From: a virus
IMG/VR virus record: IMGVR_UViG_3300044699_000062
Span: 1-41,951 of that record
Reading direction: 5' to 3' (one strand)
Length of the DNA stretch: 41,951 nt
Shown piece after piece: positions 8,434-36,802 of this stretch (positions are counted from its first letter, which is position 1; every line of letters starts with the position of its first letter). Below the pieces are notes generated by a model. The model made no database searches and was not told where the DNA came from. It was given only the letters and a program-made list of their open reading frames with translations. Both the position numbers and the translations under genes were made by a program.

Positions 8434-9174
8434 TCACCGTGCGGCAGGACGACGACGCTGCCCGGTATGAGCCTGCTGGGTCGAGATTGGCTCCACGGGC
8501 TTTAGAACGGGCTTCGCCGGCTTATCGACGGCGGTAGCCGGAGGCGGTGCCACGGGCGCTGCCGGCGCTGCCGGCGTCGCGTCGGCGAGGTTGCCGTCCA
8601 TGTCGGACCAGCCGACCAGATTGTAGATCGGCGTCGTCGTCCGGCCGTGCTTGGGATGGTCGTACCAGGAACTACCGAAGATGATGACCGGACAGGGGTG
8701 CAGCCGCCCTTCCGGCGTCGCCAATTGGCGCTGGATCTGCGCCAGCAGGCCGTCGATGGCGCGAATGCCACTGAGCGAGTTGCACTTATAGAGCACCTCA
8801 GTACCGGCATCGTCGCCGTCGAGGCATTTCAGCTCGAACGAGCGCTTTTCCTTGTAGGCGACATCGTCGATCGGGGGCGGGCAGTCGGGCTTCGGGTCGG
8901 CCATCGACGCCATCACCTCGCCCCGCATCTCCGAATCGATCCAGCAATCCCAGCCATGCGCGAGCGAGATGATATTGATCACCCAGCGCGAGCCGGGCTG
9001 CATTTCCTCGTTACTTGGGCCCCACACCCACTGCTCGTTCTTGAGCAGGCGCAGGTACGGCTTGCCGCCGCCGGGCAGTATGGTCTTGGCGCGGCTCTCG
9101 GCGATGCCGGACGCCAGCTTGTCGATGAAGTTCGCCGGCAGCGTGGTGCCGGTGCGGTTGATCATTTCATTCAT
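8434..9174 (-). CDS. putative phage single-stranded-DNA-binding protein
   Basis: ATG 9174 (MNEMINRTGTTLPANFIDKL) has AGGAGA at a good distance. The 246-residue product has a compact, aromatic-rich core (PYLRLLKNEQWVWGPSNEEM, SRWVINIISLAHGWDCWIDS, VIIFGSSWYDHPKHGRTTTP) and a low-complexity Ala/Pro tail from about residue 195. Lying between the nuclease and the polymerase, with a globular domain plus disordered tail, it fits the place of a recombination or ssDNA-binding protein. The assignment rests on context and composition; I do not see a diagnostic OB-fold motif. The stop overlaps the alternative GTG start of the polymerase. Confidence 0.5.
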   Translation of the reverse strand: MNEMINRTGTTLPANFIDKLASGIAESRAKTILPGGGKPYLRLLKNEQWVWGPSNEEMQPGSRWVINIISLAHGWDCWIDSEMRGEVMASMADPKPDCPPPIDDVAYKEKRSFELKCLDGDDAGTEVLYKCNSLSGIRAIDGLLAQIQRQLATPEGRLHPCPVIIFGSSWYDHPKHGRTTTPIYNLVGWSDMDGNLADATPAAPAAPVAPPPATAVDKPAKPVLKPVEPISTQQAHTGQRRRPAAR

Positions 9175-11072: not shown

Positions 11073-13388
11073 ATGGCCAATACATATCCGATTGAGCGCG
11101 CGATGCAACTGCTCGCGCTGGGCTATAACATCACGCCGAACCGCGGCAAGGCCTGCCATATCCCGGGCTGGAATACGCCGGCCTACGTGGCCGACGTGCT
11201 GACGGCCGGGCCGAAGGGCACGCCGGCCGAGCGTTGGAAAGCGCGTTTCTCGGAATATCCCACCATCGGCGTGCGCATCGATCGTGGCCGGGCGATGCTC
11301 GACATCGATGTCGACGATCCGCTGATCGAGCAATTGCTCGAGCGCATCGCCGTGATCGCGCCGGAGGTCCACGCCCGCGCCCCGACGCGCTATGGCGGCG
11401 GCACGCACAAGGTCGCGCTGATCGCGCAGACCGATATCGGGCCGGGCGAGGTCGGCAAGCTGCGCAGTCATCGCTATCGGCGGCCGGACGACGGGGTGGA
11501 GCAGCATCACTGCGTGGAGATCTTCCTCAGCTCGGCCGGCAGCGATGTCTGCAAGGCGCAGTTCGGCGCCTACGGCGCGCACACGATCGGCGTGCGCGAC
11601 TACGCATGGTCCGAGCATCCGGCGCCGCTGCATGAGGTCGCGCCGCAAGATTTGCCGCTGCTGACCAAGGCGGCGGCGAATCAGATCCTCGCCGCGTTCG
11701 AGCAGCTCGCCGACGCGGCCGGGTGGGTGCGGCTCGGCACTGATGCCGGCGCGGCGGACGCGGCGTTCATCCACAGCATCAACGAAGAGACGCGGTTCGA
11801 GCTGGCTGACGGCAGCGAGGTGAACTACGCCGAGTTGTGCGACCGCTACACGCCGGGCGACGATCTGCGTTGTTCATCATCGTTCCACGGCAATGCGGGC
11901 AGCAACCGCAGCAAGTGCCAGGTCGGCGAGATCCGGGCGCTCGGCGGTGTCGTCGGTGTGTGGGACAACGAGGAGGCTGCTTGGTACGCGCCCAAGCTGG
12001 TCGACACCGAGGTGCTGGGGCAGGAGCTGAAGGCATGGGCCGCCGAGAATTATACCGGCGAAAGCATGTTCGTAACGACTTTCAGCTACCAGGATTTCTA
12101 CGCCTACCTGCCCGAGCACAAGTACATCTACGCGCCGTTGGGCACGCTGTGGCCGCAGGCGAGCGTCAATGCACGGCTCGCCAAGGTCGGTCCGCTGAAG
12201 GCCAGCATGTGGCTCGACCAGAACCGGCACGTCGAGCAGATGACGTGGGTGCCGGGCGAGCCGGTCGAGATCGCGGATCGGCTATTCGCCGATGGCGGGT
12301 GGATCAGGCGGCCCGGGTCGCGCGGCTTCAACCTGTATCGGCCGCCGGCCCCGCCGAAGACGGGCACGGGCGATGCGAAGCTCTGGCGCAGGCATGTGGA
12401 GCGCATCTATCCCGACGAGGCGGAGCACGTCGAGCAATGGTGCGCGCAGCGCGTGCAGCGGCCGGCCGAGAAGATCAACCACGCGCTGGTGCTGGGCGGC
12501 AACCAGGGCACCGGCAAGGACACGCTGCTGGCACCCTTGAAGCACGCGGTCGGGCCATGGAACTTCAGCGAGGTCGGGCCACAGCAGCTGCTCGAACGGT
12601 TCAACGGGTTTCTCAAGTCGGTGGTGCTGCGCATCTCGGAGGCGCGCGATCTGGGCGAATACAATCGGTACGCCTTCTACAATCATACCAAGTCGATCAT
12701 CGCGGCACCGCCGGACGCGCTGCTGGTCGACGAGAAGAACCGGCATGCGTACTACATCCCCAATGTCTGCGGCGTGGTCATCACGCTGAACGAGAAGGAC
12801 AGCCTCTATCTGCCGCCGGACGATCGACGGCATTTCGTGGCGTGGTCGAACGCCACCAAGGAGGATACCGACCTCGATACCGAGTACTGGGACCGGCTCT
12901 GGCACTGGTACGCGAACGGCGGCCTGGACGCGGTCGCATGCCACCTCGCCGGCCTGGACCTGTCCACCTTCCACGCCCAGAAGCCGCCGCGCCAGACCGA
13001 AGGCTTCCGCACCATGATGAACCTGTCACGGATGCCGGAAGACGCCGAGATGGCGGACGTGCTCGACGCGCTGAGACGGCCGGATGCCGTCACGCTGGAG
13101 GACGTCGCGGGGTGTGCCTTCGACACCAAGCGCGCTGATTTTGGACGCTATTTGACGGATCGGCGCAACGCGCGGAAGTTCATTTTCCGCTTCGCGGCGT
13201 GCGGCTACTCCCCGGTCGACAACCCCGACGCCAAGGACGGGCTCTGGGCAATTGCGGGAAAACGCCAAGTTATCTATGCGCGGGACGAGGGGCTCGGAGG
13301 TAGTGGGATAAAGGCGGCGCAGATGCGGGCCGCCGAGGCGGACGAGGTGTCGGCGACGCCGCGCTGGTATCCGGGTGTAGTGAAATAG
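11073..13388 (+). CDS. primase-polymerase/helicase (NrS-1/DUF5906-like)
   Basis: The 771-residue ORF is intact. The N-terminal half resembles a PrimPol domain: IGVRIDRGRAMLDIDVDDP (acidic Asp-x-Asp pair about residues 75-80), RYGGGTHKVALIAQ, and VEIFLSSAGSDVCKAQF then YGAH. The C-terminal half is an SF3-like helicase: LVLGGNQGTGKDTLLAPL (Walker A about 475), VVLRISEARDLGEYNRY (Walker B region), VDEKNRHAYYIPN, and CGVVITLNEKDSLYLPPDDR (sensor 1/arginine finger region). It probably primes and unwinds DNA for the family A polymerase. The stop is followed at once by the large inverted repeat. Confidence 0.85.
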   Translation: MANTYPIERAMQLLALGYNITPNRGKACHIPGWNTPAYVADVLTAGPKGTPAERWKARFSEYPTIGVRIDRGRAMLDIDVDDPLIEQLLERIAVIAPEVHARAPTRYGGGTHKVALIAQTDIGPGEVGKLRSHRYRRPDDGVEQHHCVEIFLSSAGSDVCKAQFGAYGAHTIGVRDYAWSEHPAPLHEVAPQDLPLLTKAAANQILAAFEQLADAAGWVRLGTDAGAADAAFIHSINEETRFELADGSEVNYAELCDRYTPGDDLRCSSSFHGNAGSNRSKCQVGEIRALGGVVGVWDNEEAAWYAPKLVDTEVLGQELKAWAAENYTGESMFVTTFSYQDFYAYLPEHKYIYAPLGTLWPQASVNARLAKVGPLKASMWLDQNRHVEQMTWVPGEPVEIADRLFADGGWIRRPGSRGFNLYRPPAPPKTGTGDAKLWRRHVERIYPDEAEHVEQWCAQRVQRPAEKINHALVLGGNQGTGKDTLLAPLKHAVGPWNFSEVGPQQLLERFNGFLKSVVLRISEARDLGEYNRYAFYNHTKSIIAAPPDALLVDEKNRHAYYIPNVCGVVITLNEKDSLYLPPDDRRHFVAWSNATKEDTDLDTEYWDRLWHWYANGGLDAVACHLAGLDLSTFHAQKPPRQTEGFRTMMNLSRMPEDAEMADVLDALRRPDAVTLEDVAGCAFDTKRADFGRYLTDRRNARKFIFRFAACGYSPVDNPDAKDGLWAIAGKRQVIYARDEGLGGSGIKAAQMRAAEADEVSATPRWYPGVVK

Positions 13389-13399
13389 GTCGAATCGGC

Positions 13400-13544
13400 T
13401 AAGTCAGTGATCGATCTTCTCCAATAAATCGCACAACCGTATTCGGTCTTCTTGATCTTCAAAAGGTAAAATAATATAGGATGAAACAGCTAAAGGTTGC
13501 ATAACGGTTGTGCGATTTATTGGAGAAGATTGATCACTGATTTG
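13400..13544. repeat. 37-41 bp near-perfect inverted repeat with AT-rich 63-nt centre (candidate origin or structured RNA)
   Basis: The left arm (13404-13440) and right arm (13504-13540) pair over 37 bp, with one G/T pair (13413/13531) that would still be a wobble in RNA. Pairing can extend outward to 13400/13544. The spacer 13441-13503 is AT-rich (AAAAGGTAAAATAATATAGG), unlike the GC-rich flanks. It lies 12 nt after the primase-helicase stop and no supported gene crosses it. The position fits a replication origin or a regulatory hairpin; a mobile-element remnant is possible, but no target duplication is visible. The remaining 13545-13636 holds only very short open frames. Confidence 0.8.
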
Positions 13545-13636
13545 ACCTACCAGACCGACGACGACGGCGTCGTAGTTATGCGAAAATTGCATGGCTAAGA
13601 GAGAGGTCCGGTGAAGAAAAACAGGGTGACGACAAT

Positions 13637-13716
13637 AAAAGGCCTTGCCTTTAATTCTTAGGTGTGCGACAAAGAACTGAGCCGGTTGGTGCCGGCGCCA
13701 ACCAAGGGGTTCCCTG
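13637..13716 (+). promoter_or_regulatory. upstream element, copy 1 (AAAAGGCCTTGCCT ... CCAACCAAGG ... ATG)
   Basis: The core AAAAGGCCTTGCCT (13637-13650) recurs exactly at 14565-14578. Downstream the two copies share TTA, GTGC, ACTGA and CCAACCAAGG-G, in the same order, before the ATG. TTGCCT (13645-13650) could be a -35 box, but the -10 position (GACAAA) is poor. This copy also has GGTTGG...CCAACC, a small hairpin abutting the ribosome-binding site AAGGGG. Likely a shared promoter plus 5' leader. Confidence 0.45.
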
Positions 13717-14022
13717 ATGCTGAGCCAGCTCGAACTGATGCAGAAGGCCAATGAGATCGCTGCGGCCGTGGACTGCGGCCGGATTTCCGCCGCCAAGCGC
13801 GGCCGCAACCCGAAGTTCCCCTACGTGCCGGTGATTGATTTCGGCACGCGCACCGAGCAGGTGCGCTGTCTCGCCTACGTCACTCGTGAGGAGGCTCTTG
13901 CCGCCGCTGCCGCCACCATCCAGGCGCGGCGCAACGATCTGCGGCAGAAGCTGATGGACCCGCGCTACCGCGCGCTGCGCGAGCAGTACGGCTTGCCGCG
14001 CGACATCAAGGTGGAGGGCTGA
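13717..14022 (+). CDS. small phage protein, unknown function
   Basis: The product is 101 residues from ATG 13717, which has AAGGGG upstream. It has an N-terminal helix (MLSQLELMQKANEIAAAVDC), a basic central segment (SAAKRGRNPKFPYVPVIDFG), then strand and helix (VRCLAYVTREEALAAAAATI) and a charged C-terminal helix. There is no recognisable domain. It is the first gene of the small-gene block and follows the conserved upstream element, so it is probably early or middle expressed. Confidence 0.6.
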   Translation: MLSQLELMQKANEIAAAVDCGRISAAKRGRNPKFPYVPVIDFGTRTEQVRCLAYVTREEALAAAAATIQARRNDLRQKLMDPRYRALREQYGLPRDIKVEG

Positions 14023-14564: not shown

Positions 14565-14628
14565 AAAAGGCCTTGCCTATAAAGTTAAGACGTGCTTTAA
14601 CTGATGACACCAACCAAGGAGCTGCCCG
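14565..14628 (+). promoter_or_regulatory. upstream element, copy 2
   Basis: This is the second copy of the AAAAGGCCTTGCCT core (14565-14578), followed by TTAAG, GTGC, ACTGA and ACCAACCAAGGAG (ribosome-binding site) before ATG 14629. TTGCCT (14573-14578), a 17-nt spacer and TTTAAC (14596-14601) form a plausible promoter. The core-to-ATG distance is 64 nt here against 80 nt in copy 1; this copy lacks the GGTTGG hairpin arm. It lies directly after the stop of the winged-helix gene. Confidence 0.5.
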
Positions 14629-25858: not shown

Positions 25859-27454
25859 ATGGCCTTGCCGGTCGTAATCAAGGCGTCGGGTGGTTTGCCA
25901 GTCATCGTCTCGACCACCGGCTATGGCTTGCCCATGACGGTGGCGACCAACGGCTTTGGCATCGCCGTCACGCAATCGACCACCGGCTTCGGCCTGCCGG
26001 TGGTCGGCATTACGTTCGGACCGGACGTCACGGCTCCCATCATCACGTCGAGCGCCAGCGTCAGCAATGTCGAAAACACGGTGCTGGCGCATACGCTGGG
26101 CGCCAATGAACCAGTGACGTGGTCGATCATCGGCGGCGCCGACATGGCGCGGTTCGAATTGTCGGGCAGCACGCTGCGCTGGCTCTCCAACGGCGTGAAG
26201 GACTTCGAGGCGCCGAACGATGCCGACGCCAACAATGTATATCTGGTGCAGGTTCGTGCAGTCGACGCCGCCAGCAACGGAACCAATCAGACCATCTCGG
26301 TTACGGTGACCAATGTCACGGGCGTCGCTCCGGCAGCTCCGGTGCTCGATCTCGTGACGGATGAAACCGACAACACGCCGGACTTCACGCTAACCGGGGA
26401 TCTCGTGCTGGGCGATACGGTTCGCTTCCAGTATTCGACTTCCGCGACGTTCGCCGGCACGAGCGAATTGACCAACACGATCGATGCCGGCGAGGACGCA
26501 GCGAACTCAATTATCTTCACGACTGGCGCGCTGTCGGGCGGTCCTTGGTACTTCCGCGCACGCATTGAGCGTCCGGACCCCGAAGGGGCATTGATCCAGT
26601 GGCTGGAGCAATACCGAAACGATCACCTATCCTTCGCTGTATAACAGGCCCTGGCGATCTTGTTTCCGGTGCGCTTGGGTGGTGGGTTTACGTGCGTATA
26701 ACGCCGCGTATTGTACGGGGAGCAACCCGGCAATCGACATTGTTGATCAAGCCGGCGCCAATCCGCTGACTGTCAATATCCGGTCTAACGGGGAACTTGA
26801 TGTTGCAGCAATTACCGCGTGGGTGACTTCACACTCTGTTACCGCAATTCAGATTACCAAGCTATATGGATCAGACCGGCGGCAGTGTTGGTGATTTGCC
26901 AGGGGTGCCGGGTATTTGCCTAGATTGGAACTTAACGCTGCCGGACTGGGTTCTGGCAAGGCCGCAATGAGGTTTTTACCAAGCTTCCCCGGAATATTTC
27001 GCGGCTTTTGAAAACAGCGGGTAACGCAACTTTCAACCAACCATTTTCTACTTCTGGCGTTGCGTGTGTTGACGCAAGTTCCGCATCGACATATCTTTGG
27101 GGAGGTAATCCCAGTAATAATTTCTATACCAGATATAACGCTGGTGCGTTTGCATTTCAGGCCGGCGGTGGTGAAGTTGTTGGTGGTGCATCTGCTACCG
27201 GAGTTTTCCGTACCATACAGACTACGGCGAACGGTGATAATACCGGAAATATCTGCACCGACGGGGCAGACGTTGCTGGGTCTGGTGTCGGTTCGGGAAA
27301 CTTTACAGGCGTGCCATTCCGGCTGGGTGGTGGGCCATCGGCTGTCATGGAAGGACGCATCTGTGAATTCGGCAGATGGCCGGGTGTATTTCGTCAGGAA
27401 ACAAGAGCGCACTTAATACCAACCAGCATGCTGCGTGGGGGTTCTAGTGACTAA
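25859..27454 (+). CDS. multi-domain adhesin: GLPV repeats, Ig/cadherin-like and LamG-like domains (frame broken)
   Basis: ATG 25859 opens MALPVVIKASGGLPVIVSTT and three further copies of a TxGxGxPVxV unit (residues 10-55). A cadherin/Ig-like domain follows (PIITSSASVSNVENTVLAHT to VRAVDAASNGTNQTISVTVT), then an FN3-like domain (PVLDLVTDETDNTPDFTLTG). After a shift near 26595 a LamG/arabinofuranosidase-like domain appears: GLRAYNAAYCTGSNPAIDIV, SNGELDVAAITAWVTSHSVT, TKLYDQTGG (after a shift near 26870), and the typical end RICEFGRWPGVF. The stop at 27452-27454 overlaps the tailspike start. Likely role: glycan binding on the virion surface. Confidence 0.6.
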
Positions 27455-35703: not shown

Positions 35704-36309
35704 ATGCGACTACACCTACTGGCTGCGCCTAGCACGTATGGCTCCTCGACGTTTGCCCAGCCCGGCGCCACGCCAGTATCAACAACGTCATTTACCGCTC
35801 CGCCGAGTGACGCTCCGATTGACGTGTTCGAGCAGGGGTACAACGACTTCTTTGGTGCTCCTCCTGCGGGCGCGCTTCCGTCTCCCGGTATTTTTGATCC
35901 AAGCGCAACCTTCGCCGCAAATGCTCCGGGTAGTGGTGGTCGTGGTTATGGTGACTTTGCTGCTGCAATGGCTGCGGCAAATGCGGCCGATGCTGCTGTT
36001 GCCAATTCCATGGCCAGCGCCATGGCGTCGCAGGGCGTGCCGGGTAGCGGTGGTCGCGGTGGCGGCGCCGTTGGTGGCTACGGTGACTTTGGTGCCGCAA
36101 TGGCTGCGGCAAATGCTGCTGATGCTGCCGTTGCCAATTCCATGTCCGGAGCCATGGCGTCGCAAGGCTGGGGTGGTTGGGGCGGTGGCTTCGAGGGCGG
36201 GGCAGGAGTTGGTGGTGGCGATGCTGGTGGCGTTGGCGGCGTCGGTGCTGGTGGTGGCGGCGTCGGCGGCAGTGATGCCGGCGGCAGCAGCCCCGGAGGC
36301 GTCGGATGA
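35704..36309 (+). CDS. Ala/Gly-repeat protein, putative virion-associated
   Basis: ATG 35704 with GGAG 8 nt upstream is chosen over an upstream start that overlaps the previous gene. MRLHLLAAPSTYGSSTFAQP gives a short hydrophobic start, then APIDVFEQGYNDFFGAPPAG. Two near-copies follow of YGDFAAAMAAANAADAAVAN + SMASAMASQG, and a poly-Gly tail with many GG(V/A)G units. Its C-terminus resembles the end of the previous protein (GWGGW). The 201 residues are probably disordered. The stop overlaps the GNAT start (ATGA). Confidence 0.55.
   Translation: MRLHLLAAPSTYGSSTFAQPGATPVSTTSFTAPPSDAPIDVFEQGYNDFFGAPPAGALPSPGIFDPSATFAANAPGSGGRGYGDFAAAMAAANAADAAVANSMASAMASQGVPGSGGRGGGAVGGYGDFGAAMAAANAADAAVANSMSGAMASQGWGGWGGGFEGGAGVGGGDAGGVGGVGAGGGGVGGSDAGGSSPGGVG
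35931..36165 (+). repeat. about 115-bp imperfect tandem repeat in coding sequence
   Basis: Two units, each encoding G(S)GGR...YGDF(A/G)AAMAAANAADAAVANSMxxAMASQG, start near 35931 and 36048. Protein identity is high and DNA identity is moderate. The unit is in frame and probably arose by internal duplication. Confidence 0.7.
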
Positions 36310-36802
36310 CGCTCCGCTACATATTCAACCAGGATCAGCTCGTCGCCGACTTCGTGGCGCGGGCCAAGGTCGCGTCCGGGTTCTCCCGTCGCGCCGGCTT
36401 CACTGATGCGAACCTGAAGGCGATCGGCATCGTCAACGCGGACAACGAGCTGATCGCCGGCATCGTCTATTTCAACTACAACCCGGAGGCCGGCACCGAT
36501 CGAGATGAGCATCGAGGCGCTGCCGAAGCAGAACTGGCTGACGCGCACCACGCTGGCGGTCATGTTCCAGTATCCGTTCCTGCATTGCGGCTGCCAGATG
36601 CTGATGACCAGGACGGCGGCGTACAGCGAGCATGTCTGCGGATGCTGGCGGCGATGAACTTCATGCTGATCCGCATCCCGCGCGCAGGCGGGAGACCGAA
36701 GATGGCGTGCTCGGCCTGCTGACCTACGAGGACTGGATCAACGGCAAGTTCTGCAAGCGGTTCAACCACCACATTGCCGTCAAGGCGGACGAAGCGGCGT
36801 AA
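36306..36802 (+). CDS. GNAT-like acetyltransferase of the phage tail region (frame broken)
   Basis: ATG 36306 overlaps the preceding stop. MTLRYIFNQDQLVADFVARA, LKAIGIVNADNELIAGIVYF and NYNPEAG form the N-terminal GNAT strands. After shifts near 36505 and 36640, IEMSIEALPKQNWLTRTTLA, MFQYPFLHCGCQMLMTRTAA and MNFMLIRIPRA match acetyltransferase motif A/B; a further shift near 36700 leads to LLTYEDWINGKFCKRFNHHI and TAA 36800-36802. Phages often carry this single-domain GNAT between structural genes; its target is unknown. Confidence 0.6.

Follow-up and report, generated by a model that had tools for sequence, protein, structure and literature searches.

To our knowledge, the replication origins of most tailed phages are not known. 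Behind orf904 of the archaeal plasmid pRN1 lies an inverted repeat of ~100 nt (21-nt stem, 58-nt loop) that is essential for replication, restores replication when moved and is kept in fold and place, with poorly conserved sequence (Berkner et al. 2014, PMC4234260). According to its authors the pRN1 origin is without iterons, and the same origin type has been proposed for Bordetella phage BIP-1 (PMC4234260). SaPI origins (SaPIbov1, SaPI5) have iterons directly behind rep, read by the C-terminal domain of Rep, and in the putative origin of SCCmec Cch2 deletion of the direct repeats abolished binding while deletion of the inverted repeat did not (PMC7581432). By analogy, the Cch2 result is a caution against equating a palindrome with a binding site.

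The window (the whole stretch of 41,951 nucleotides analysed here) is a virus record and probably a near-complete, permuted genome, as its two ends adjoin in a relative, G001 (IMGVR_UViG_3300050511_000060), which is ~90.5% identical to it over most aligned blocks. On its minus strand the window encodes a DUF2800 exonuclease, a family-A polymerase and a helicase, and on its plus strand the primase; Bordetella phage BPP-1 has the same set of replication genes in a closely similar layout. Window positions 35940–36310 align to G001 in several overlapping pieces, which suggests that a tail-region gene contains internal repeats differing in copy number. Directly behind the primase gene lies an inverted repeat with an AT-rich centre, which, judged from sequence comparison, is very probably a primase-helicase-type replication origin flanked by iterons. 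The features of this region are as follows.

11073–13388, plus strand: initiator gene, encoding a 771-aa PrimPol (pRN1/NrS-1-like) and SF3 helicase (DUF5906/VapE-like) with a winged-helix-like C-terminal end, assigned from Pfam, PHROG and fold matches
12999–13286, plus strand: winged-helix-like C-terminal domain (residues ~643–738), likely iteron reader, from the helix/strand order in models
13394–13402, plus strand: left outer iteron, degenerate (ATCGGCTAA), 6/9 to GTCRGTGAW and in 9-bp register with the next
13403–13411, plus strand: left inner iteron (GTCAGTGAT), 9/9 to the consensus of relatives
13404–13440, plus strand: left arm of the inverted repeat; iteron, inner box CGATCTTCTCCAATAAAT at 13412–13429, then 11 nt varying in G001
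13441–13503, no strand: AT-rich centre of 63 nt, presumed melting region
13504–13540, minus strand: right arm, mirroring the left; inner box at 13515–13532
13533–13541, minus strand: right inner iteron (ATCAGTGAT), 8/9 to GTCRGTGAW
13542–13550, minus strand: right outer iteron, degenerate (GTAGGTCAA), 7/9 to the consensus and in 9-bp register

The left arm begins 15 nt past the primase stop codon. On recounting, the arms pair at 36 of 37 positions with G/T as the sole exception, in agreement with the original prediction, and a looser version (13388–13440 and 13504–13556) reaches 53 nt at 85% complementarity. The record holds 16 other inverted repeats, the longest of 30 nt at 70%, and the repeat at 13404–13540 was the only match scoring at least 22 in a scored inverted-repeat search of the window. 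Its centre is AT-rich in a GC-rich genome, as first described (68% AT against 63% GC), with an AT60 value (0.68) equalled by only 3 of 634 other stretches. The statement that no gene crosses this centre also holds, no convincing orf being present there. Candidate reading frames were set aside: a mechanically called minus-strand orf across the repeat (13404–13808) is unsupported, a minus-strand peptide ending in LLEKIDH has no phage homologues and a substitution pattern that is not clearly coding, and a plus-strand frame that continues into a 95-aa frame in G001 has no phage homologues. A 32-aa peptide read from the repeat region likewise matched nothing among phages. That the structure is not a normal terminator is borne out: in place of the short GC-rich stem, small loop and T-run of an intrinsic terminator there is a 63-nt loop, with no T-run past the right arm, and a terminator scan was negative here.

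Arms of ~40 bp around 63 nt would also match the outline of a miniature transposable element, an invertible segment or some other insertion. This origin for the repeat is extremely improbable, given that no second copy was found in the window genome, that searches with the repeat returned nothing meaningful from phage and viral collections except G001 and nothing convincing on plasmids, that place and orientation are identical in G001, and that relatives carry unrelated arm sequences at the same place. Seven further matches to the arm pattern, in low-GC contigs, are attributed to chance.

Since G001 carries the same repeat at the same place and in the same orientation, 15 nt past the primase stop, the repeat is not an assembly chimera, one of the findings that had been named as speaking against it; another, absence from relatives that keep the primase, is not what was seen either, the near twin having the same repeat and more distant relatives repeats of a different sequence at the same place. 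Between window and G001, four of 11 nt differ in the inner left arm and four of the next 22 nt, against one difference in the preceding 42 nt and none in the following 107 nt. The changes in the inner left arm of G001 are uncompensated on the right arm, and the iteron part is unchanged, a pattern that appears to weaken any strict stem requirement for the inner part of the arm. The identical run at 13462–13569 (108 nt) ranks only 14th among the identical runs of this mosaic pair, and conservation was not used as evidence because similarly long runs exist elsewhere in it. At 13430–13440 the match between inner left arm and right arm is exact in the window but not in G001; template switching that corrected a formerly imperfect palindrome in the lineage of the window could explain this difference. 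G001 (locus L003, 2938–3143) has an extra small gene of ~68 aa directly behind the repeat, with a strong ribosome-binding site and no phage homologue found; it is absent from the window near 13600. Cumulative GC skew, proposed as a check on the origin, shows no turn at 13.4 kb and is confounded by gene orientation.

As searches with the repeat itself yielded nothing further, relatives were gathered by protein, initially with the polymerase and then with a primase profile; none were found in bacterial genomes when sought by primase or portal. The polymerase search gave nine relatives besides G001 with a readable 3′ end. Among these, L069 has the closest complete primase outside G001 (44% identical), followed by an inverted repeat of unrelated sequence that begins 14 nt past the stop and has a 64-nt spacer (15 and 63 in the window), its arms consisting of three 9-bp repeats (ACGGGCG core) plus their mirror image. 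Opposed short repeats are present behind the primase in eight of the nine, L069 included, and are weak in L058; the opposed words in the eight are ACGGGCG, AGGGCA, GGAGCA, GAGACC, GTAACA, GTTACA, TGGTACA and AGGTAAC. In eight of the nine, too, the 60 nt with the highest AT content in the locus lie behind the primase, the exception in this case being L069.

The profile set comprised 32 loci retrieved blind, through helicase peptides only and with no regard to the DNA that follows the gene. Dropping near-identical copies and two fragments without a usable 3′ end, and adding the window and G001, left 27 non-redundant loci, 25 of them gathered blind (L113 and L069 being one locus). In the stretch that begins 20 nt before the primase-helicase stop and ends 300 nt past it, 18 of the 27 loci have an inverted repeat scoring at least 20; none of 1412 other stretches taken from these loci has one (Fisher p ~5e-35, only indicative, because stretches overlap and loci are related). 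A strong ungapped repeat is absent from the other nine homologues, some of which have gapped iterons, and the primase stops of L112 and L108 may be misjudged. Arm sequences differ between phages, yet left and right arms mirror each other in each; on this comparison the repeat is a module conserved in position, not in sequence. Such a site was not seen in the Vibrio, Thiohalocapsa and Manatee Spring phages, whose primases are distant. Relatives gathered by the portal gene mostly carry other replication modules, and a search among them for a match to the repeat came back empty, a weak answer in itself. Two of these portal-gene relatives (L029, 5703–5827; L030, 6314–6456) have inverted repeats made of tandem 9-bp GGTCAGAAA or 7-bp GTTCAGA units with 73–85 nt spacers, located between a SprT-like gene and the next gene instead of behind a primase, possibly as origins of a different replication module. 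In Nostoc phage Nsp-JY18 (L016), 12 copies of ACCCGGG near 8439, around the end of the primase/polymerase gene, form the densest repeat of the locus.

Tandem repetition in the profile set is found at lag 9 in 17 of 27 loci, at lag 6 in two and at lag 12 in one. The iterons are GTCAGTGAT-like, and the consensus GTCRGTGAW was taken from loci other than the window. In a typical locus, L091, the left arm (GGTGATGTCGGTGAAGTCGGTGATTCTCTATCTCCATTAT) runs from iterons GTCGGTGAA and GTCGGTGAT through an inner box (CTATCTCCATTAT) to the AT-rich core and is mirrored by the right arm, and the arms of the window have the same order (ATCGGCTAA, GTCAGTGAT, then CGATCTTCTCCAATAAAT). The window's own site does not stand out in simple hexamer counts, and its 9-bp iterons are visible only via relatives; with one good and one degenerate iteron per arm, multiple iterons are weakly represented in the window itself. 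Of the six tandem iteron pairs in the whole window genome (inner at least 8/9, outer at least 6/9), one lies in each arm, the two mirroring each other; as the window was in sight when these cut-offs were set, the count is supportive and no formal test. The observed basis of the origin reading is the anatomy of the site, its place right after the initiator gene in many phages, arm sequences that turn over in mirror symmetry, the 9-bp phasing and an AT-rich core.

Recognition of such an origin by shape, as in the pRN1 model, would have the arms form an extruded DNA hairpin or cruciform, so that the stem-loop and not the iteron sequence recruits the initiator. In pRN1 a stem mutation is tolerated only with a second, symmetry-restoring one, and the stem-loop is kept without sequence conservation (PMC4234260); long near-perfect arms are seen in the window, L100, L105 and L110. 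However, the arms contain 9-bp iterons, the changes in the inner arm of G001 are unmatched, six homologues (L061, L063, L070, L088, L107 and L108) have opposed short repeats with no long continuous stem, and L096, L099 and L103 carry additional direct iteron arrays, all of which makes recognition by shape unlikely. Arrays that lack a long continuous stem, and those with extra direct copies, are more readily explained as protein-binding sites in DNA.

The original prediction had left the choice between a replication origin and a hairpin RNA, and took the preserved wobble position as slightly favouring selection on RNA. The origin half of this has gained strong comparative support, while the RNA half is disfavoured by the mismatches: RNA selection on the primase strand should give more G.T than A.C mismatches, and the arms of 23 repeats contain 9 G.T against 19 A.C (p 0.09, opposite to expectation). 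The predicted RNA fold of the repeat is strong (−85 kcal/mol, z −11.5 on either strand), as expected of any such repeat, and the single exception in the window is indeed G/T. Without an RNA-wobble bias in the arms, with iteron phasing, uncompensated changes in the inner arm of G001, several homologues lacking a continuous stem and zero matches in an Rfam search with the repeat, a long hairpin RNA or RNase III-type processing site at the 3′ end of the primase message is very improbable.

Opposed repeats are also typical of operators, and a promoter-like motif recurs ~95 nt downstream of the repeat, so that the iterons might serve the initiator or another regulator as binding sites for the control of a set of genes. 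Against this, the site goes with the 3′ end of the initiator gene and not with its start across unrelated gene contexts, has an AT-rich core, and lies where published origins (SaPI, pRN1) are located; an operator in place of an origin seems quite improbable. The motif, AAAGGCCTTGCC followed 17–18 nt on by TTTAAC or similar, recurs in intergenic positions, just upstream of genes, at 13637–13670 and 14565–14600 in the window and also in L008, L025, L028, L029, L030 and L048. Its sequence resembles a promoter of phage or host type (−35 CTTGCC, −10 TTTAAC), from which transcription would resume past the origin.

The initiator protein matches Pfam DUF5906 (1.5e-11) and a PHROG DNA primase family (2.4e-27), and its only PDB sequence match is NrS-1. 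A first, full-length AlphaFold2 model was poor (pLDDT 58), although its N-terminal half is mostly >70 and has the pRN1 ORF904 prim/pol domain (1ro0, 1rni) as best PDB matches. The poor full-length model made a second model of the C-terminal half necessary; built with 27 homologues (mean pLDDT 86), it matches the NrS-1 C-terminal region (6k9c, best) and the SaPI5 primase-helicase (7ola, 7pds), 7pds being the SaPI5 entry with double-stranded DNA. The last ~95 structured residues have a winged-helix order of helices and strands, judged by eye in both models. The domain make-up of the protein is established by model, and by analogy with SaPI Rep and Cch2 its C-terminal domain likely reads the iterons.

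For the site as an origin, we infer iteron binding, melting, priming and the direction of replication. Each arm opens with a pair of 9-bp iterons, and the pairs face each other across the AT-rich core; the PrimPol-SF3 helicase product of the neighbouring gene would bind them, perhaps as two rings, melt the core, unwind the DNA and lay the first primers, which the phage's own family-A polymerase would extend. More tentatively, the arms may do double duty: while double-stranded they would be inverted iteron arrays read by the winged helix of the PrimPol-helicase, and once melted they would fold back and expose the AT-rich loop as a single-stranded template for primer-free initiation by the same protein. 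If so, the pRN1 stem-loop and the SaPI iteron origins would be two faces of one design, common to archaeal plasmids, satellites and many tailed phages, in which the iteron word drifts with the winged helix.

The comparison links two origin types that were described separately, and it offers many natural initiator-iteron pairs for studying how proteins read and change a DNA word. It also gives a simple rule, to search for an AT-rich core flanked by short opposed repeats behind a PrimPol-SF3 gene, that yields candidate origins in many uncultured phages and in BPP-1 (NC_005357.1; L118). The strongest inverted repeat of the BPP-1 genome (26607–26628 and 26689–26710) contains two copies of the 9-bp iteron TTGCCTCGT and their mirror copies. 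It spans the 60 nt of highest AT content in that genome and lies ~470 nt behind the stop of the primase gene (bbp29) and beyond bbp28. This segment (26607–26710) is a candidate replication origin and does not coincide with the stem-loop proposed next to 27177 (PMC4234260), the only paper that a literature search for the BPP-1 origin returned.

Compared with pRN1, the window likewise has an inverted repeat behind a gene for prim/pol, SF3 helicase and a winged-helix-like end in one protein, with an N-terminal domain matching the pRN1 prim/pol structure and a stem-loop kept in place and not in sequence. Unlike pRN1, most homologues have arms composed of 9-bp iterons, and the window represents a tailed phage that encodes a polymerase itself, not an archaeal plasmid. 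The helicase and C-terminal part finds its best structural match in phage NrS-1 PrimPol (6k9c); in the part of the NrS-1 literature available here, initiation is at an 8-nt template word (TTTGGTTA) found twice in its genome, and an inverted repeat is not described. As in SaPI origins, iterons (weak in the window itself) and an adjacent AT-rich region are found directly behind the gene of a self-loading-type initiator helicase, here an SF3/D5-type protein with a putative DNA-binding C-terminal domain suggested by the modelled fold match to SaPI5 (7ola, 7pds). In contrast, SaPI and SCCmec elements are satellites or islands that use the host polymerase, Cch2 binds direct and not inverted repeats, and in the window opposed iterons are merged into long near-perfect arms with a shared inner box. 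The basic design is already known; what is new here is this merging of iterons into long near-perfect arms with an inner box, the breadth of the arrangement among tailed phages and the candidate in BPP-1.
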